Positions 6,424 through 23,409 of a stretch of 64,000 nucleotides of DNA are shown piece by piece. The translations under genes and the position numbers were made by a program. The notes beneath the pieces are model-generated. The model did not search any database, was not told the DNA's origin, and saw only the letters and a list, made by a program, of their open reading frames with translations. How positions within the stretch are numbered: position 1 is the stretch's first letter; each line of letters starts with the position of its first letter. Source of the DNA: Lentisphaerae bacterium GWF2_44_16 (GTDB taxonomy: Bacteria > Verrucomicrobiota > Lentisphaeria > Victivallales > GWF2-45-14); NCBI GenBank assembly GCA_001803225.1, contig MHBF01000074.1:1-64000 (forward strand), in the 5' to 3' direction.

Positions 6424-7260
6424 TCAACCTTTGACAGCCGCAGAAGACAGACCTTTTACGAAAAGCCTCATAGTAAAAATAAATATAATAATCATAGGTA
6501 TGCTCGAAATAGTGTATCCCGCCATGAGCTGGCCCCAGTTTTTAACATACTCGGAGTCCATTCTCACAAGGCCGACGGCCAGAGGCAGCATATTGTCATC
6601 GCGTATGACAACCAACGGCAGAATATAACTGTTCCAGATGCTTATGAATTGAAGTATGCCCAGCGTCGAGAGTATGCTTCCTGACATCGGCAGAACTATG
6701 TTATAGACTTGCTGCAGGAGTGTGGCCCCGTCAACTTCAGCGGCATCAAACAGGTCCTGAGGTATCTCCTCTATGAAGTTACGGAGAATGTAGATCTGAA
6801 CAACCTGCGCTCCCGCCGTATCAACTATTATCAGCGCCCAGAAAGTATTGAGCAGGTTCAGGTTTTTCAAAAGCATGAACAAAGGTATAAGATTGGCAAT
6901 CCCCGGCATAAGCATCAGGATAAGGAAAAAATACCACAGCGCCTTATGCCCGGGCATTCTGTAACGGGCAAAGAAAAAGGCCGCGTTAAGGGTCAGCCCA
7001 AAGGTTAAAATAATAGAGGTAACGCATATAAAAATAGTATTAAAGATATAACCTGATACCATATTCCACGCCACTGTAAAATTTTCCCAGTGAAAAGGCA
7101 TCATGAACGTCCAGGGATTGCCCGCGAACTGCGCGTTTGTCTTGCCGCTTATAGTCAGCATGACATAAAATGGAAAAAAGGACATAGCCAGTATCAGAAA
7201 AATAAAGAGATGCTTTGAAAGTTCGGAAAATATGCTTTTTGTTTTACAGCCCAGTTTCAT
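6424..7260 (-). CDS. Carbohydrate ABC transporter permease (MalG-type)
   Basis: EAA loop EVDGATLLQQVYNIVLPMSGSILSTLGILQFISIWNSYILPLV. Confidence 0.92.
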   Translation of the reverse strand: MKLGCKTKSIFSELSKHLFIFLILAMSFFPFYVMLTISGKTNAQFAGNPWTFMMPFHWENFTVAWNMVSGYIFNTIFICVTSIILTFGLTLNAAFFFARYRMPGHKALWYFFLILMLMPGIANLIPLFMLLKNLNLLNTFWALIIVDTAGAQVVQIYILRNFIEEIPQDLFDAAEVDGATLLQQVYNIVLPMSGSILSTLGILQFISIWNSYILPLVVIRDDNMLPLAVGLVRMDSEYVKNWGQLMAGYTISSIPMIIIFIFTMRLFVKGLSSAAVKG

Positions 7261-7269
7261 GATATACCT

Positions 7270-8712
7270 CTATTTATCGACTCTGATATAACGGTTGTTA
7301 AGTTCGGTCAGGAGCAATATGAAAAAGAAAAGTATCAGCCCTATCGCGCAGGCGTAACCGGCCTGTCCGCCCGAAAATGCCTGAGCGAACATGAGCAGGC
7401 CCGGTACCATCAGCTTGCCGTTGGGCCCGCCGCTTTCGCCGAAAAGAATAAGTATAAAACCATAAGTCTGCAAAGTGCCGATAATCATCAGCACCATATT
7501 AATCCTTATCTGCGTAAGTATAAGCGGAAGCTCTATGTGGAAGAACTTTTCAAAGGCGTTCGCTCCGTCAATGTCGGCGGCCTCGTAAACGCTTGTGGAT
7601 ATCCCCTGAAGCCCCGCGAGATATATGAGCACTCCCGTAACGCCGACCCAGGGAAAACCCCAGAGAATAAACGCCGGAAGCACCAGATGCTCATTGCCCA
7701 GCCATACGGGCATGGTCCCGGCCTTGAAAATACCGCCCCAGCCCAAAAGATGGTCCAGATAAATCAATACGTCCATTATTTTCGTGTATATCAGCACTTT
7801 GTTGAATATGCCCACGTTCGGCTCGAAAAAGAACTTCCACAAAAGCAGATATACCATGCCCGGAATTATCATGGGAATTACGAAAAGCACCTTGTAAAAA
7901 TAGTTGAACTTTTCGCTTTTCAAACGGTGAACTACAACCGCCGTTGCTATTGACGGTATCATCTTGGGTATATTGAAGAGAACAAGTATGAAAACTATGG
8001 TGAAACCGCTCCATAGCACCGGATCGCCTCCGGCATGCTTCCCAAGCCCCCAGAAACATATTCCCAGCGCGATGAAGGACTGAAGCGTTCTTGCGCCCTC
8101 AATATGAGGAAGGTTTTCAGCGTAAGGCAGTATCCACATGAAGAAGCCGTTGAAAAGCATGACTATCATCCATGCGAAAACTGATGAAAAACCCGTCGCG
8201 TGAATAAAAGCCGCCGCTATGAAATCCAGCGGTATCAGCATGTATATCCATTTGTTTTTGTTTTCGTCGCTTATGAAAAACTTGAAAGCCAGAAGCAGCG
8301 TTCCCCAGACCAGCAGCGCGAAGCCGAAATGTTTTCCGGCCGCCTCTCTTGTCATATCAATATAGGCCCAGCCGTTTATAGCAATCGCTCCGGCGCCGGC
8401 TATCATCGAGCCGATCCCGGCTATAAGCCTGAAAAGATTTGATTTTATATCGTTTTTTCTGGCATAGAAAAGTACCAGCGCGAAAAGAGCGAAAGTGAAT
8501 ATCCAGAGCCAGTAATTGCCCATAAGGCGGCGGAAGTTCAAGTCACCGACAAAAGTATTTATGTCTTCACCGTTCCATCTGAAAAAGGCATGATACATTG
8601 CACTCAGGGCCGGATAATATGAAAAAACGCCCACAAGCAGGACGCTGGGAATAACAAAGAAATATACTTTCCAGTAATGTTTAAGTTTGCTGTAACCTAT
8701 GATTTTCGCCAT
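7270..8712 (-). CDS. Carbohydrate ABC transporter permease (MalF-type) with large internal membrane insertion
   Basis: EAADIDGANAFEKFFHIELPLILTQIRINMVLMIIGTLQTYGFILILFG; 480 aa with extra TM helices between NFRRLMGN and the core permease domain. Confidence 0.88.
   Translation of the reverse strand: MAKIIGYSKLKHYWKVYFFVIPSVLLVGVFSYYPALSAMYHAFFRWNGEDINTFVGDLNFRRLMGNYWLWIFTFALFALVLFYARKNDIKSNLFRLIAGIGSMIAGAGAIAINGWAYIDMTREAAGKHFGFALLVWGTLLLAFKFFISDENKNKWIYMLIPLDFIAAAFIHATGFSSVFAWMIVMLFNGFFMWILPYAENLPHIEGARTLQSFIALGICFWGLGKHAGGDPVLWSGFTIVFILVLFNIPKMIPSIATAVVVHRLKSEKFNYFYKVLFVIPMIIPGMVYLLLWKFFFEPNVGIFNKVLIYTKIMDVLIYLDHLLGWGGIFKAGTMPVWLGNEHLVLPAFILWGFPWVGVTGVLIYLAGLQGISTSVYEAADIDGANAFEKFFHIELPLILTQIRINMVLMIIGTLQTYGFILILFGESGGPNGKLMVPGLLMFAQAFSGGQAGYACAIGLILFFFILLLTELNNRYIRVDK
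8026..8514 (-). other. Approximately 160-aa polytopic insertion within the MalF-type permease
   Basis: About six hydrophobic segments (LWIFTFALFALVLFYA; LIAGIGSMIAGAGAIAI; FALLVWGTLLLAFKFF; MLIPLDFIAAAFI; FAWMIVMLFNGFFMWIL; SFIALGICFWGLG) absent from canonical MalF-like proteins of ~300 aa. Confidence 0.6.
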
Positions 8713-8715
8713 TTT

Positions 8716-10788
8716 TCAGTCTCTCCGTGTTTTTATCCGCTTGAAGTTTTCAAAGAAACTCTTACTGAATTCAGTTTTATCGGGGTTCGCAAAAAACGGC
8801 GCGAACATTGCCTTCGTAGCCGGTTGAACAAAACTGTAATCAATAATCACGTCCCAGCTCGCCTTCAGCTTGCGGCGGCTTTCTTCAAGTCCGGCATTGT
8901 CTTTGGAAAATATATATTTTGCCAGGTATATGCTTCTCTGGAGCTGTTTATCGGGAAGAGCGTCGCTTGCGCTTACCAGTATCGCGTCAAAATCATACGC
9001 CATGTCCTGCGGCAAGGATGACTTCAGCTTTTTAAGATATTCCTTATAATCGATTTCGCCGGAAATATACGGCCAGTAAACCTGAGATTCTATCATAGCG
9101 GAACGCGTCTTGCCGCCAAAGGAAAAATTAAGAGAGCCGAAATATCCCTTGAAATTAGGCTCAAAAGGCTTCAGCATCTCAATGGTTTTCGCGTATTTCA
9201 CCGCCGGTATCCACTCGACTATTTCATTGAATTTCTGATTGTTTTCAGGGGTTGTGCAGAACTGCAGAAAGTCTATGGCCGTCTCTTTATGCTTTGAAAA
9301 TTTTGTAATCCCGTAAGCGCATCCTGTTCTTGAAACTTCCGCTACCGGACCTGCTATGTATTTGGCATATTTATCATTTGGACCGGGTACGGGAAAGTCA
9401 AAAATACCTACCTCAAATCTTTTTCGCGGCATAAGTCCGGCATCTTCCGCGGGGGAAACGCTTTCAAGCTCTGTAATCACAGGGACTTTCCCGAGTTTCG
9501 TATCCTTTATGTCGGCAAGCTCGAAACCAAAAGTTTCCCTGAAATGTTTCTTTCCTTCAAGTGGTTTTATATTAACTTTGATTTTACTGCCTTCCCTGTT
9601 GAGGAGCAGGCTTATGTCTTTCTTAGCAGCCACGGCTTCGTTCATGGTTTTCATGATTTCATCCGAACTGGAAACTTTCTTGCCGTTTACTGCCAATATT
9701 ATATCGCCGAAAGGCTGAGAGCTGGCCTGGCCTATAAACGATTTGGCGTCCCAACTCCCCGAGGTTATAAAAGCCGCACGGCCCTGAACGAAGGCGAAGC
9801 CCGAATCCATACGTTCTATCGACATAAAACCCGGCGCGAAATACTTCGCCATATCCCTGACTGTCTCGATACCTGCCTCCATTTTCGGGTCATCAAAAGT
9901 CAAATCTCCGTTCAGAAAAGCCAGCAGCAACTCTCTGCCGTCCTTTAAACTGCCATCAAAGTTTACATCCAGCTCAAGGTATTTGTCCGCGGTAAACATG
10001 GCAAGATATCTGCCTTTGTAAGTGTTGATGTTATAGCGGTTTGAAGCTATGGGCACCAGCGGTGCTTTCTCCTTCAATTTGAGCGGCGCAAAGGGAAGCT
10101 TCTGCCACCATTTGAGATTTCTCATAACCTTCTGATTGTATTTTTCGGCTTCCGCGTTTTTCTGTGCCACATAATTCTGTATTTTTTTGCAGTAGTTCAA
10201 AAACTCGGAAAGGGTCTTCGGTTCCTTGTCTGTTTTCAGTATCCTCCTGAAAATATCCTTATTATAGAATATCCTGACTGAACCCTGATTCATGCCTACC
10301 ATATAGTAATCAAGCAAGTCGGGCATATAAGACCCCTGCAGGCTGTCAACAAAGGTGTCCATCCACGGAACATTTCTCAGCAGCGGGTTATCTTTATTAT
10401 AAGGATTGGGCTTTCTCAATTCATCGGTCAACGGAACAAAATAACGGCCCAGATAAAGTTTCGTATCAAATCCGCCTATTTCTATGAGATCCGGCGCGGT
10501 CCTGCCGAGAAGTTGCGTCGTAACCCACTGTCCATAAGCGCGTTCAGTAATCGGTATCTGAATAATTTTCACTTTAGGGTGTGTTTTCTCATAAAGCTTT
10601 ATCATTTCATCCATAGCATCTCTGTACCCGGCTTCAAGCTGCCAATGGCAAAGCCTTATTGTGGTTTTGTCAATTTCCTCGTTTTTGACTTTAAGCACAT
10701 TCCATATCGCGCCCAAGTAGCAGACAAGAAGAATGGCAAGGCCTATATAACTCATTATGGAAATGTTTTTTTCTTTTTTTTCCGCCAT
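8716..10788 (-). CDS. Membrane-anchored extracellular solute-binding protein with an internal PDZ-like domain
   Basis: N-terminal TM anchor; SBP motifs APDLIEIGG, GRAAFITSGSWDAKSF, FEVGIFDFPVPGPND…AGPVAEVS; PDZ motif GDIILAVNGKKVSSSDEI inside. Confidence 0.88.
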   Translation of the reverse strand: MAEKKEKNISIMSYIGLAILLVCYLGAIWNVLKVKNEEIDKTTIRLCHWQLEAGYRDAMDEMIKLYEKTHPKVKIIQIPITERAYGQWVTTQLLGRTAPDLIEIGGFDTKLYLGRYFVPLTDELRKPNPYNKDNPLLRNVPWMDTFVDSLQGSYMPDLLDYYMVGMNQGSVRIFYNKDIFRRILKTDKEPKTLSEFLNYCKKIQNYVAQKNAEAEKYNQKVMRNLKWWQKLPFAPLKLKEKAPLVPIASNRYNINTYKGRYLAMFTADKYLELDVNFDGSLKDGRELLLAFLNGDLTFDDPKMEAGIETVRDMAKYFAPGFMSIERMDSGFAFVQGRAAFITSGSWDAKSFIGQASSQPFGDIILAVNGKKVSSSDEIMKTMNEAVAAKKDISLLLNREGSKIKVNIKPLEGKKHFRETFGFELADIKDTKLGKVPVITELESVSPAEDAGLMPRKRFEVGIFDFPVPGPNDKYAKYIAGPVAEVSRTGCAYGITKFSKHKETAIDFLQFCTTPENNQKFNEIVEWIPAVKYAKTIEMLKPFEPNFKGYFGSLNFSFGGKTRSAMIESQVYWPYISGEIDYKEYLKKLKSSLPQDMAYDFDAILVSASDALPDKQLQRSIYLAKYIFSKDNAGLEESRRKLKASWDVIIDYSFVQPATKAMFAPFFANPDKTEFSKSFFENFKRIKTRRD
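9418..9714 (-). other. PDZ-like domain (apparently circularly permuted) inserted in the solute-binding protein
   Basis: Order is PFGDIILAVNGKKV…LLLNREGSKIKVNIKP…FGFELAD…VPVITELESVSPAEDAGLMP, flanked by SBP sequence on both sides. Confidence 0.7.
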
Positions 10789-10790
10789 AA

Positions 10791-11657
10791 CTATTTATCC
10801 TTGAGAGAGGCTATTTTTTCTTTTACATAGTATGTGATGTTGCTGTTTTCTATTTCTTTGTCAATGCGTTTGTAATACTCCAAGGCTGTTTTCGTGTCTT
10901 TCAATTTCTGCTCCGATATCCTGGCTATGGTAAAATATGCCTGTGACTTCATGGCATAACTGGTCGGGCCGAAGAAACAATATGCTTTAAGCCAATTGAT
11001 GCTTTGTGAATACGCTCCGCGCCAGAACAGACAGTTATAAAGGTAATAACACATGGGCGCCGCAAGAAGCGTCTTATCGGAAGAAACGGACTTGGCGTCA
11101 GTTGTAAAAGGCTTCAGATAAGCCTCAATAAGCTTTATATTCTCCGTTGTCGCCTCATCTGTAAAATCCTGAGTCTGCGAAACGGCTTTTAGGAGCATAG
11201 CATCCTGAGTAACAACTGAGTCGGGATGATTTTTTCTGAGGTAATCCCAAGTTGCCTCGGCTTTCGCCAGTTTCTGGGGGTTGTCTTCCATTACTGAAAC
11301 ACGATATTCACATTCCGCGATCATGGACTTCAGGAACGGCGAGAGCTTATGGTTTTCGCCTGTTTTCTCAAGCCCTTTCTTGTAAAGGCTTATCGCGTAC
11401 TCGTAATCGTATGCCGACACCTGATTTTTCTGAGCGAACTGATAGCAGAAAGCCTGTCCTGTCAATGCCTCGGCGTATTCATCCGGAGTGGAAACGCTTT
11501 TTTCCGCTTTTTTAAAGAATTCTTCTGCTTTCGCGAATTCTCTGAATTCATATTCAGACCAGCCTTTCTTCAGCAAATCCAGCGCCTTATCTTCTCCATG
11601 TACGACAATGAACGCGAACAGCAAGAAAAGAAAAAGAAAAAACTTTGATATTGACAT
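10791..11657 (-). CDS. Secreted TPR-repeat protein
   Basis: Signal peptide; helix-pair repeats (A..EFF.KAE…AYFTIARISEQKLKDTKTALEYYKRI). Confidence 0.75.
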   Translation of the reverse strand: MSISKFFLFLFLLFAFIVVHGEDKALDLLKKGWSEYEFREFAKAEEFFKKAEKSVSTPDEYAEALTGQAFCYQFAQKNQVSAYDYEYAISLYKKGLEKTGENHKLSPFLKSMIAECEYRVSVMEDNPQKLAKAEATWDYLRKNHPDSVVTQDAMLLKAVSQTQDFTDEATTENIKLIEAYLKPFTTDAKSVSSDKTLLAAPMCYYLYNCLFWRGAYSQSINWLKAYCFFGPTSYAMKSQAYFTIARISEQKLKDTKTALEYYKRIDKEIENSNITYYVKEKIASLKDK

Positions 11658-19070: not shown

Positions 19071-20033
19071 TCAGTTATTGCTTGTACACTCGGGGGTCGT
19101 CAGTTTGCGGAAGAACTCGGCGCATTTGTCCTTTTCGGGACTGTTCCGCAAGGCTATGGCAACTCTCGGATGCTCGTTCAGCAAACCCGTTATCATGTAA
19201 GGTATGATGTATCCCCATTCTATATCTTTAGAAAGAGGAATGAAGACGTCTTCTATCGCCTGGAGGACGGGTTCGATACTGTATTTGGGATGTTTGAGCC
19301 AGCCGAGAAGCAGTTCGAGCGGACAATTTCCCGCGCCTCTCCCTATGCCGTTGATGGTGGCGTCGCAGAAACTCGCTCCCGTATTCAACGCCTGAACAGT
19401 GTTAGCGAAACCTAACTGGAGATTGTTGTGCGCGTGAAATCCGGTGCATATTCCAGACTTCAGTTCTTTCAGGAACAGCTTGACCAGATGCTCTGCGTTA
19501 TTCTGATAAAGTGAACCGTAACTGTCAACGATGTTGACGGCCATCACCTTCGTTTCGTTCTCTATCTGTTTCAGGCCTTCGGCAAGATCATAATCGTTAA
19601 CCGAGGATATGGCCATGATGTTTATAAACGCCTCGTAGCCTTTTTCAATGGCGTGATTTGCCAGCCAGATGGCTTTCTCTATGTCTTTCAGGTATGTCGC
19701 GACTCTGATGAAGTCAAGCGGGGACTCGCTTGCCGGAGCTATGTCATCATGTTCAACCCTGCCTATGTCAACCATCACGCCAAGCTTCATTTCAGTCTTC
19801 GTATCCCCGACTATTTCCCTTACTACTTCATCTTTCGTAAAACGCCATAAGCCGAATTCTCCGGGAGTGAACATTTTTTCGGAAGCGCGATAGCCAAGCT
19901 CCATATAATCCACGCCGGAAGCGTTCAAGGCAAGGAAGACTTTCCTTACCATTTCTTTCGAAAACTGCCATTTGTTTATGAGCCCGCCGTCACGTATTGT
20001 GCAATCGACAACCTTGAATTCACTGTTCAGCAT
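19071..20033 (-). CDS. Aldolase catalytic domain protein (HMGL-like TIM barrel)
   Basis: VVDCTIRDGGLINKWQF…VDYMELGYR…GFHAHNNLQLGFANT…DATINGIGRGAGNCPLELLL. Confidence 0.88.
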   Translation of the reverse strand: MLNSEFKVVDCTIRDGGLINKWQFSKEMVRKVFLALNASGVDYMELGYRASEKMFTPGEFGLWRFTKDEVVREIVGDTKTEMKLGVMVDIGRVEHDDIAPASESPLDFIRVATYLKDIEKAIWLANHAIEKGYEAFINIMAISSVNDYDLAEGLKQIENETKVMAVNIVDSYGSLYQNNAEHLVKLFLKELKSGICTGFHAHNNLQLGFANTVQALNTGASFCDATINGIGRGAGNCPLELLLGWLKHPKYSIEPVLQAIEDVFIPLSKDIEWGYIIPYMITGLLNEHPRVAIALRNSPEKDKCAEFFRKLTTPECTSNN

Positions 20034-20062
20034 TAAATTACCACTCCTGATTTAATTTGTGT

Positions 20063-20091
20063 AAAAAAAAGCCCGCCTTTTTCCGGCGGGC
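20063..20091 (-). terminator. Intrinsic terminator downstream of the TIGR04073-like gene
   Basis: GCCCGCC-TTTTTCC-GGCGGGC stem followed on the minus strand by eight T. Confidence 0.85.
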
Positions 20092-20119
20092 TTTGTATGA
20101 ACTTCAAATATCCCGGATA

Positions 20120-20524
20120 TTACCTCATCACCGCGGTGTCCGGATAAACCGTGTTGTAAACGTCATGGTCTTCGTCCACAATCCATTCAGGCCTCATTAT
20201 AGGCCCGTATCCCCAGCCTGCCTCTCTGGGATCATCCATACAGCCAGGTATCGGCATCGGGAATGTCAATATTTCGAAAATCCCTACACCTTCACGGGCG
20301 AAAAAACGACCTATTCCCTTAAAAAGGCCGTACGTCCATGCGGCTATACCACCCTCTGCCTGGTTTGTATCATATACACATATAGGTATTTCAAGCGCAC
20401 CCAAAGCCGTATTCGCAACCCCTCGTCCAAGCTTCCTTGCCGGATCTCCCGCAAAAGAGTTTACAGATAAGAATAACATAAACACTATCACCGTCGCGAG
20501 GATTGCCTTAAATGAGCGCTTCAT
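20120..20524 (-). CDS. Exosortase system-associated protein, TIGR04073-like
   Basis: Signal peptide then ARKLGRGVANTALGALEIP…YGLFKGIGRFFAREGVGIFEILTFPMPIP…GPIMRPEWI. Confidence 0.75.
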   Translation of the reverse strand: MKRSFKAILATVIVFMLFLSVNSFAGDPARKLGRGVANTALGALEIPICVYDTNQAEGGIAAWTYGLFKGIGRFFAREGVGIFEILTFPMPIPGCMDDPREAGWGYGPIMRPEWIVDEDHDVYNTVYPDTAVMR

Positions 20525-20714
20525 TAATAACCCCTATCCTTTTTACTTGTTTCATAAACCCGAACAATATCCGTAAAAAAACACCAACATCTTCAAATAT
20601 AACTTGATTTTTTCAACAATTCAAGAAAATTTCTATGATGTATAATATTAACTTGTAATAATTTATTATTTTAAACGTGTTTCCCGTGTTTATCAAAAAG
20701 AAATTGGAGCTTTT

Positions 20715-21176
20715 ATGAAAAAAAAATCGCCCGGCATTAAAAATCCCCCCCCGGGAAAGGAAAGATTCTCGAAACTTACACTCCTCAAGACATCTCATAC
20801 CAAAGTCTCCGACGGCCCCGAAAACGCGAAACTTGAAGTCTTTTCAAATATATACGCGGGAAGAGATTACGAGATAGTCTTTGACTGTCCTGAATTCACG
20901 TCTCTCTGCCCGGTAACGGGTCAGCCCGACTTCGGCGCGATTACAATCAGGTACATAGCCGATAAATACTGCATTGAAAGCAAGTCACTGAAACTCTACT
21001 TGTTTTCTTTCAGGAATCATAATACATTTCATGAAGAGGCCGTTAATTCCATCTTCGATGCCGTCGTAAAGGCCGCGTCTCCCAGATGGGCTGAAGTCAG
21101 CGGGATTTTCAATCCCAGGGGCGGCATAGCTATAAAAGTTAGAGTCTCAACAGATTTAAAGGTTGCAAATAAATAA
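20715..21176 (+). CDS. queF: NADPH-dependent 7-cyano-7-deazaguanine reductase
   Basis: FTSLCPVTGQPDFGAITIRY…CIESKSLKLYLFSFRNHNTFHE. Confidence 0.95.
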   Translation: MKKKSPGIKNPPPGKERFSKLTLLKTSHTKVSDGPENAKLEVFSNIYAGRDYEIVFDCPEFTSLCPVTGQPDFGAITIRYIADKYCIESKSLKLYLFSFRNHNTFHEEAVNSIFDAVVKAASPRWAEVSGIFNPRGGIAIKVRVSTDLKVANK

Positions 21177-21179
21177 AAT

Positions 21180-22415
21180 ATGAAAAAAAAGAAAAGTTTT
21201 GACATCATCGCAAAAGGCGGCGTAACATCGCCGAAAGGCTTCAAGGCCTCCGGCATATGCGCGGGAATCAAGAAAAGCGGAAAAGACGACATGGCGCTTA
21301 TATACTCGGAAGTCCCCGCTTTATTTTCAGGCGCTTTCACATCCTGTCTCTTTGAGGCCGCCCCGGTAACCCTCTGCAAAGAACGCCTCGCTTCAGATTC
21401 AAAATTCCGCGCCGTCATCATCAACAGCGGCAACGCCAACGCGTGCACCGGAACACCAGGTTACAAAAACGCTCAGAAAATGAGCGAAATAACAGCCGCT
21501 GAACTCTCAGTAGCACCCGAAAACGTCCTGGTATCGTCCACCGGCAGAATCGGCGTTCAACTGCCCATGCCCGTAATAAAACACGGCATCAAACTCGCCG
21601 CCGCCGCTCTTTCGGAAAAAGGAGGGGACAAGGCCGCTAAAGCCATCATGACCACCGATACAAGGCCAAAGGAATCTGCCGTATCCATTAAAATAAACGG
21701 CAAAAAAGTTACCATAGGCGGCATGACCAAAGGCGCCGGAATGATCGCCCCTAAACTTAACGTCCCGCACGCCACCATGCTCACTTATATCACTACTGAC
21801 GCAGACATAGGCAAACCCCTTCTCAGGGCATTGATGTCAGAAGGCGTGAACAGGTCATTCAACTGCGTCACCATCGACGGCGACACCAGCACCAACGACA
21901 CCGTTCTGCTCATAGCCAATGGAAGCTCCGGCGTTTCCATAAAGAAGGGAACAAAGGAAGCCGCGCTCTTTGCCGAAGCACTTTATTTCGTCATGGAAGA
22001 CCTCGCAAAACAAATAGTATATGACGGCGAAGGCATGACTAAATTTGTTACCGTTACAGTAAATAATGCCGCGTCCGCGAAGGATGCCGAGCTTTGCGCG
22101 CGTTCTGTCGCGAGTTCCCTTCTCTGCAAAACCGCATGGTTCGGCAGCGACCCCAACTGGGGAAGAGTCCTTGCCGCCGCCGGATATTCAGGCGCGACTT
22201 TCAAGCCCGAGAAATTTTCACTGGACTATGACGAAAAACCCGTAGTCAGAAACGGACAGGATGCCGGAACCCCTGAAAAAGCCCTCGCCAAACTCATGAA
22301 ACGCCCGGAATTTACCGTCAAAATCGATCTCAACGCCGGCAAACATTCGCATACCATCTGGACAAATGATATATCTTATGAATATGTTGAAATAAACGCT
22401 GATTATCATACTTAA
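21180..22415 (+). CDS. argJ: Bifunctional glutamate N-acetyltransferase / amino-acid acetyltransferase ArgJ
   Basis: INSGNANACTG…MTTDTRPKE…GMTKGAGMIAPKLNVPHATMLTYITTDA…DGDTSTNDT…DPNWGRVLAAAGYSG. Confidence 0.97.
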   Translation: MKKKKSFDIIAKGGVTSPKGFKASGICAGIKKSGKDDMALIYSEVPALFSGAFTSCLFEAAPVTLCKERLASDSKFRAVIINSGNANACTGTPGYKNAQKMSEITAAELSVAPENVLVSSTGRIGVQLPMPVIKHGIKLAAAALSEKGGDKAAKAIMTTDTRPKESAVSIKINGKKVTIGGMTKGAGMIAPKLNVPHATMLTYITTDADIGKPLLRALMSEGVNRSFNCVTIDGDTSTNDTVLLIANGSSGVSIKKGTKEAALFAEALYFVMEDLAKQIVYDGEGMTKFVTVTVNNAASAKDAELCARSVASSLLCKTAWFGSDPNWGRVLAAAGYSGATFKPEKFSLDYDEKPVVRNGQDAGTPEKALAKLMKRPEFTVKIDLNAGKHSHTIWTNDISYEYVEINADYHT

Positions 22416-22420
22416 TAAAT

Positions 22421-22495
22421 GTGGCTGCGACGAAGCGCAACCCTCCACAGTTTCGAGTGTTTCGTGGAGATTTGCTTCGTCAAATCCGTCTTAAA
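22421..22495. repeat. REP-like hairpin element, copy B (inverted relative to A)
   Basis: GGAGATTTGCTTCGTCAAATCCGTCTT is nearly the reverse complement of the copy A core; lies between argJ and argB. Confidence 0.75.
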
Positions 22496-22539
22496 ATAAC
22501 GAATTTCGATATTCATTGAATTAAGGAGGTTTTTATAAA

Positions 22540-23409
22540 ATGGAGAAGCTTATAAACAAGGCCGCTGTCCTGATGGAAGCGTTGCCTTACATTCAGAAGT
22601 TCAAAGATGAGGTTTTTGTAATAAAATTCGGCGGCAGCGCCATGGAGGATGAAGACCTCATCACACAGACAATGCGCGATATAGTCCTGCTGGAATGCAT
22701 CGGCGTTCACCCGGTAGTCGTCCATGGCGGCGGCAAAGCAATTACCGCAAGGCTCAAGGAACTCAACATAGAAACGCGCTTCGTAAACGGTCTCCGTTTC
22801 ACCTGCGAGAAAACCATTGACGTCGTCGATGACGTCCTGCACAATGTCATCAACAAAACCCTCGTCAACGCCGTAGTCGAACAGGGCGGCAAGGGACAGC
22901 GCATATCCGGCAAAGATGTCCTCAAAGCCGAAAAAACATATTCAATTGCCCCCGACGGCACCAAAAGCGATGTAGGTTTTGTAGGCAACATCGTATCGGT
23001 CGATACACAACTCATCATGGCCATGGCCAAGTCGGATATAATTCCGGTCATAGCTCCGCTGGGACTTGGAGAAGACGGACAGGTCTTCAATATCAACGCC
23101 GACACCGCGGCATGCGAAATAGCCGAAGCCCTGAAAGCAAAAAAACTTGTTTTCCTCAGCGATGTCCCAGGCATCCTCCGCGACACCAAAGACGAAAAAA
23201 GCATCATATCAACAATAAAGGTTTCCGAAGTCGATTCCATGATAAAGGAAGGCGTAATCAGCGGCGGCATGATACCCAAAATAAGAAGTTGTCTGCACGC
23301 GATAGAAGCCGGGGCCGAAAAAGTCCACATGGTTGACGGACGCGTCAGACACTCACTGCTACTCGAAATATTCACCGACAGCGGCATAGGCACTGAAATA
23401 GTCAGATAG
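22540..23409 (+). CDS. argB: Acetylglutamate kinase
   Basis: VIKFGGSAMEDEDL…PVVVHGGGKAIT…RFVNGLRFT…NINADTAACEIAEAL…GGMIPKIRSC; AAGGAGGT RBS. Confidence 0.97.
   Translation: MEKLINKAAVLMEALPYIQKFKDEVFVIKFGGSAMEDEDLITQTMRDIVLLECIGVHPVVVHGGGKAITARLKELNIETRFVNGLRFTCEKTIDVVDDVLHNVINKTLVNAVVEQGGKGQRISGKDVLKAEKTYSIAPDGTKSDVGFVGNIVSVDTQLIMAMAKSDIIPVIAPLGLGEDGQVFNINADTAACEIAEALKAKKLVFLSDVPGILRDTKDEKSIISTIKVSEVDSMIKEGVISGGMIPKIRSCLHAIEAGAEKVHMVDGRVRHSLLLEIFTDSGIGTEIVR

Follow-up and report, generated by a model that had tools for sequence, protein, structure and literature searches.

Analysis of the window (the whole 64,000-nucleotide stretch of DNA studied here) revealed a solute-binding protein (SBP) of an ABC importer, encoded on the minus strand at 8716..10788, whose inserted segment is very probably one circularly permuted PDZ domain. 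A first-pass annotation had proposed both the insertion and the permutation, and both were supported by profile matches in the two possible orders with controls, by eight orthologues in which the position of the insert is conserved, by sister proteins that lack the PDZ and retain the empty site, and by AlphaFold2 models. The explanation as a whole, in which an anchored sugar-type SBP acquired a permuted PDZ domain in a single insertion and the domain is modeled as a partner-binding adaptor, appears probable to us.

The host protein and the order of its PDZ elements

The minus-strand open reading frame 10788..8716 encodes 690 amino acids, of which residues 359-457 correspond to 9714..9418, exactly as first quoted. 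Pfam matches to SBP_bac_1 (5.5e-18) and SBP_bac_8 flank the insert, and within the insert only half of PDZ_2 is matched. The AlphaFold2 model of the whole protein (13 sequences; mean pLDDT 85.6, pTM 0.82) has as its nearest Foldseek neighbors the sugar-binding proteins RafE, 4g68 (a xylan-utilization protein) and a chitin-oligosaccharide binding protein. The SBP_bac_1 fold together with adjoining permease genes places the protein among the carbohydrate-type (CUT1/MalE-like) SBPs, and its structural neighbors predict that it binds a sugar. With such proteins (SBP_bac_1; RafE, 4g68 and CbpB) it shares the fold, a GSW/GPW-type motif and MalF/MalG-like permeases in the operon; unlike RafE, 4g68 and CbpB, it is 690 amino acids long and has an N-terminal helical anchor, a coil at residues ~206-243 and the PDZ insert.

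The anchor spans residues 9-38 (10675..10764, minus strand), with a hydrophobic stretch at residues 9-27 (mean KD 2.13) and a modeled helix at 11-38. Because of this hydrophobic helix, which is probably an uncleaved signal anchor, the sequence suggests a membrane-anchored SBP rather than a free or lipid-tethered one. Alignment to PDZ-less paralogues and to orthologues divides the remainder into a first SBP segment (residues 42-358; 9715..10665, minus strand), which ends in the GSWDA helix followed by QP, and a second segment (residues 457-690; 8719..9420, minus strand), which begins RFEVGIFDFP. The insert interrupts the loop that connects the helix following GSW to the strand FEVGIFDFP. The first segment contains a second insert, charged and variable, at residues ~206-243 (10060..10173, minus strand), which in the protein alignment occurs in the PDZ carriers but not in the PDZ-less sisters; it is predicted to form a long helix and may contact the PDZ domain.

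Comparison of PDZ_2 matches to the 99 residues in native order and after exchange of the two halves provided the principal evidence for permutation. In native order the match was confined to profile positions 33-79/80 (29.8 bits), whereas with the halves swapped it extended over positions 8-79/80 (39.2 bits against a cut-off of 27; E 9e-10). Five orthologues behaved similarly, with a best native stretch of 32/33-78 (26.6-38.5 bits in total) and, after swapping, one stretch running from position 4, 8 or 14 to 78 (35.5-46.7 bits), so that in six of six proteins one near-full-length PDZ appeared only after swapping, as the first-pass annotation had anticipated. A full-length PDZ_2 match in native order, the result that annotation had named as contradicting its proposal, was not found in the window protein or in the five orthologues, as expected of a permutant; the domain is therefore described as a circularly permuted PDZ and not as an ordinary one. 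Nine shuffled front halves joined to the real back half scored 26.3-32.3 bits, well below the swapped score, indicating that the gain on swapping goes beyond chance and that the front half supplies the portion of this domain type that the back half lacks.

The back half of the PDZ, now first, occupies residues 360-409 (9562..9711, minus strand) and comprises β4-β5-α2-β6-β1′, as judged from the match to PDZ_2 positions 33-79/80 and the DSSP assignment of the model. The front half, now last, occupies residues 416-452 (9433..9543, minus strand) and comprises the carboxylate-binding loop, β2, β3 and α1, closing with SPAxxAG (S445, P446, A447, A450 and G451, all invariant); here the swapped match begins at PDZ_2 position 8 and DSSP agrees. 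A PDZ insert is thus present where it had been placed, at residues 359-457, but its true ends differ slightly. At the empty site, the PDZ-less sister SBPs read (E/D/N)QP|..RFEVG, so Gln358-Pro359 and approximately Lys456/Arg457 are SBP residues, leaving an insert of residues ~360-455 (~96 amino acids; ~9424..9711, minus strand). The proline preceding FGD is an ancestral SBP residue and does not correspond to the proline of the PDZ PGD motif.

Structure prediction gave the order of secondary-structure elements expected for a permuted form of the PDZ fold, a β sandwich capped by α1 and α2, and modeled the insert with confidence. Modeled alone by AlphaFold2 (7 sequences; pLDDT 82, pTM 0.69), the insert contains strands at its residues 4-9 (β4), 34-40 (β6), 43-49 (β1′), 64-71 (β2) and 75-83 (β3) and helices at 17-29 (α2) and 88-91 (α1), with a short helix after β1′, giving the order β4-β5-α2-β6-β1′-β2-β3-α1. 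The same elements were predicted in the full-length context, where the insert blocks had pLDDT values of 81-94. In these models the PDZ chain is opened between α1 (SPAxxAG) and β4 (GDIILxVNG), and the original termini are connected through β6-β1′-β2. Profile and predicted secondary structure thus agree on what defines a circular permutant, that is, the elements of one domain once each, a new cut and joined former ends. Foldseek returned no match to the insert at E <= 0.001, which says nothing against a PDZ fold because the aligner keeps chain order and does not allow for permutation. Its sequential alignments paired half of the insert with the HtrA PDZ 9pno_A (47 columns at 1.4 Å) and gave matches at 9-18 Å to stretches of the tandem PDZs in RseP and DegP, a pattern expected of a permutant under sequential alignment but not proof of one.

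Distribution, selection and origin of the insert

The insert was found in eight genomes spanning seven genera in five families, all within one order, and always at the same site and in the same four-gene operon. These carriers are the window, six full-length orthologues among 100 relatives and one from a phylum sample; those with names are MAGs labeled Lentisphaerae, Victivallales, Lentisphaera, Victivallis and 'Verrucomicrobia'. A single-sequence scan of genome contigs detected no relative; the relatives were found with an alignment query. A profile of the insert, run against 138 genomes from the order and 390 from the phylum, recovered the eight carriers at E <= 2.2e-29. All further matches were weak (E >= 3.6e-9) and fell in proteins 468-567 amino acids long, and those inspected were RseP-type proteases with several PDZ domains; no insert-bearing SBP from outside the order was found with this profile in the 390-genome phylum sample. 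SBP-family reading frames of 742-942 amino acids, possibly with other extra domains, were also noted in the phylum (G167:C22, G298:C86 and G273:C352).

The source assembly is a draft in 209 contigs, which is all that speaks for a chance resemblance or for an assembly or frameshift artefact. We assign this explanation a negligible probability: the same architecture in eight independent assemblies refutes an artefact, the GC content is 44.1% both in the insert and in the whole gene, and the shuffle control argues against chance.

In a tree of 50 SBPs, built with the insert columns left out, the eight carriers formed a single clade (support 99/97), and presence of the insert required one change in 100% of bootstrap trees. 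The sister group of this clade consists of three PDZ-less SBPs from elsewhere in the phylum. The PDZ domain entered this SBP a single time, in an ancestor belonging to one order of Lentisphaerota-type bacteria, and has been retained since.

Selection on the insert is purifying. Between the two closest orthologues (L042 and L044), dN/dS was ~0.13 for the insert and ~0.06 for the remainder of the SBP (NG86; rough values, since synonymous sites are near saturation), and identity between genera was 31-46% in the insert compared with 47-57% elsewhere in the protein. Gly421, Asp426, Arg398, the Ser-Pro-Ala and Ala-Gly of α1 and the Gly-Asp of β4 are invariant in the eight orthologues. Gly421 lies in the putative carboxylate-binding loop TFGF (residues 419-422; 9523..9534, minus strand), where the motif before β2 reads (Y/F)-G-(I/L/F) in seven of eight proteins and A-G-I in the remaining one (L046). 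Conservation among the orthologues is poor in helix α2, which lines one side of the groove.

A standard source of a permuted domain is a tandem array, from which the back half of one copy and the front half of the next are taken together. The insert profile aligned in register, in native order, across the junctions between PDZ(n) and PDZ(n+1) in RseP-type, DegP-type and GRASP proteins, making a tandem-array origin plausible, and the permuted shape most likely arose in this way. The best-scoring candidates for a source of the half-domains were a 468-amino-acid reading frame in L106 (39 bits; 'DegP-like' by its length only) and an RseP-type protein in L092 (34 bits). Alignment across tandem boundaries would also be seen if the insert were two unrelated half-PDZ-like stretches from such an array, lying in separate loops, the other outcome that the first-pass annotation had named against its proposal and one on which the models bear indirectly. 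We consider this quite improbable, in view of the confident model of the 99 residues alone with its elements in the right order, the invariance of signature motifs from both halves in all eight orthologues, and the presence of exactly one PDZ's elements. One permuted domain remains the preferred reading.

Operon context and possible roles of the PDZ domain

The eight carriers and the three PDZ-less sisters share one operon order, consisting of a TPR-like exported protein, the SBP, a MalF-like permease and a MalG-like permease. In the window, all on the minus strand, the first gene (10791..11657) encodes a product with weak TPR matches and precedes the SBP gene in the eight PDZ-containing and the three PDZ-less operons; the permeases, assigned by BPD_transp_1 matches and synteny, are of 480 amino acids (MalF-like; 7270..8712) and 278 amino acids (MalG-like; 6424..7260). 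The MalF-like protein has an extra hydrophobic region of ~165 amino acids near its N-terminus (residues ~63-230, with about five hydrophobic segments) that is absent from a 317-amino-acid homologue in L048. MalF-like permeases of 675-678 amino acids were seen in paralogous operons of the same order (L049:8723-10747 and L050:3999-6032).

Two proposals about the history of the operon were rejected. The PDZ-less sisters are encoded in the same operon and have the MalF hydrophobic region, so both are older than the PDZ domain: the operon did not arise with the insert, nor was the hydrophobic region gained jointly with it. No region of the MalF-like or TPR-like proteins co-occurred with the PDZ domain, their lengths being similar in operons with and without it.

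The C-termini of the TPR-like protein, the SBP and the MalF- and MalG-like permeases were rejected as PDZ ligands, since in each of the eight PDZ-containing operons these proteins end in polar or charged residues or in glycine. No PDZ-type hydrophobic C-terminus was found among the proteins of these operons (MalG ends in KG), and those of MalF and MalG would in any case be cytoplasmic. The ligand is thus encoded elsewhere or the domain is structural.

Outside the operon, an HMGL-like aldolase, a small exported protein, QueF, and ArgJ with the gene after it are encoded at 19071-23409 of the window; these genes accompany the transporter operon in several genera (L037, L039, L040 and L041), forming a partly conserved neighborhood. 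An HtrA-type protease with two PDZ domains is encoded on the minus strand at the end of the window (~62.8-64.0 kb) and runs off its edge.

In the MalE-type SBP fold, the helix after the GSW/GPW motif points out from the cleft, to which the following strand returns, and this places the PDZ loop at the base of the C-terminal lobe. In this position, away from the sugar cleft, the domain would leave sugar binding and permease docking intact. From the PDZ fold, an opening between α1 and β4 should leave the β2/α2 groove free, and the domain could then present this peptide-binding groove to the periplasm. In the simplest working model, the PDZ domain would tether the binding protein, or the importer, to an envelope partner encoded outside the operon.

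Any partner-binding role for the insert is put forward tentatively, as a putative function read from sequence, with odds slightly against it. The suggestion in the first-pass annotation that sugar uptake may be coupled to a protease, a signaling protein or a protein C-terminus is plausible as a conjecture; the nearly invariant (Y/F)-G-hydrophobic motif of the carboxylate-binding loop speaks for it, the lack of a PDZ-type C-terminus among the operon's proteins does not. More doubtful still is the specific proposal that a functional, previously undescribed type of PDZ cut between α1 and β4 physically links the capture of substrate to a protein of the envelope, for instance a quality-control protease or the C-terminus of an outer-membrane protein. 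A purely structural role, in which the permuted fold stiffens or spaces the SBP, or makes contacts with other SBPs or with the permease through its surface, and binds no peptide, is in our estimate rather unlikely but is a rival to be taken seriously. Consistent with a structural role, there is little conservation on the α2 side of the groove, the insert changes more quickly than the rest of the protein, a C-terminal PDZ ligand is not co-encoded in the operon, and the operon has non-PDZ insertions too (the MalF hydrophobic region and the SBP coil at residues 206-243). Against it, purifying selection acts on the insert and the positions of the binding loop are retained, with Gly421 invariant, Tyr or Phe before it in seven of eight proteins and a hydrophobic residue following in every one.

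Relation to known PDZ proteins

Permutation of PDZ domains is a known principle, as is their insertion into other proteins. The D1 C-terminal processing protease (D1P) has a naturally permuted PDZ in which β1 follows β6 (PMC3503759), and CIRPIN distinguishes four PDZ topologies, with permutants represented by 2z9i, 2hga and one AlphaFold cluster (PMC12667903). The insert shares its fold with D1P and the prokaryotic 'noncanonical' PDZ domains but has another start point, with β1 after β6 as in D1P; unlike the known permuted PDZ domains, it is cut between α1 and β4 and lies inside a host loop, a comparison that covers those CIRPIN topologies named in the article's text, where the fourth is left unnamed. 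In the ProDomino data set, PDZ is the most promiscuous insert superfamily, with 11 parents (PMC12328240). In those cases, as here, a PDZ lies within another domain; unlike them, so far as can be said of parents given there by count and not by name, the host here is a sugar-type SBP and the PDZ is permuted.

The tandem PDZ domains of RseP-type site-2 proteases and of DegP/DegQ are the closest non-SBP matches, both within the taxonomic order and among solved structures, and show the same succession of back half, linker and front half across the domain boundary. There, the halves belong to two complete neighboring domains of a protease, whereas in the SBP they form one domain and no protease is present. 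The main text of a survey of microbial PDZ proteins does not mention transporters or solute-binding proteins (PMC6411480), and a search of open-licence literature for a PDZ domain within a solute- or substrate-binding protein returned nothing relevant. The combination of host and domain, and apparently the cut site, therefore look new.

In sum, these results describe a natural domain insertion of single origin that occurred as a circular permutant, while the protein as it was before insertion persists in a sister lineage in the same operon, so that the step from host to chimera can be tested with real before-and-after proteins. They extend PDZ insertion to a solute-binding protein and suggest that the binding protein of an ABC importer may serve to recruit a partner. 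If the envelope coupling proposed above is real, sugar uptake would be responsive to the state of the envelope or tethered to an outer-membrane machine.
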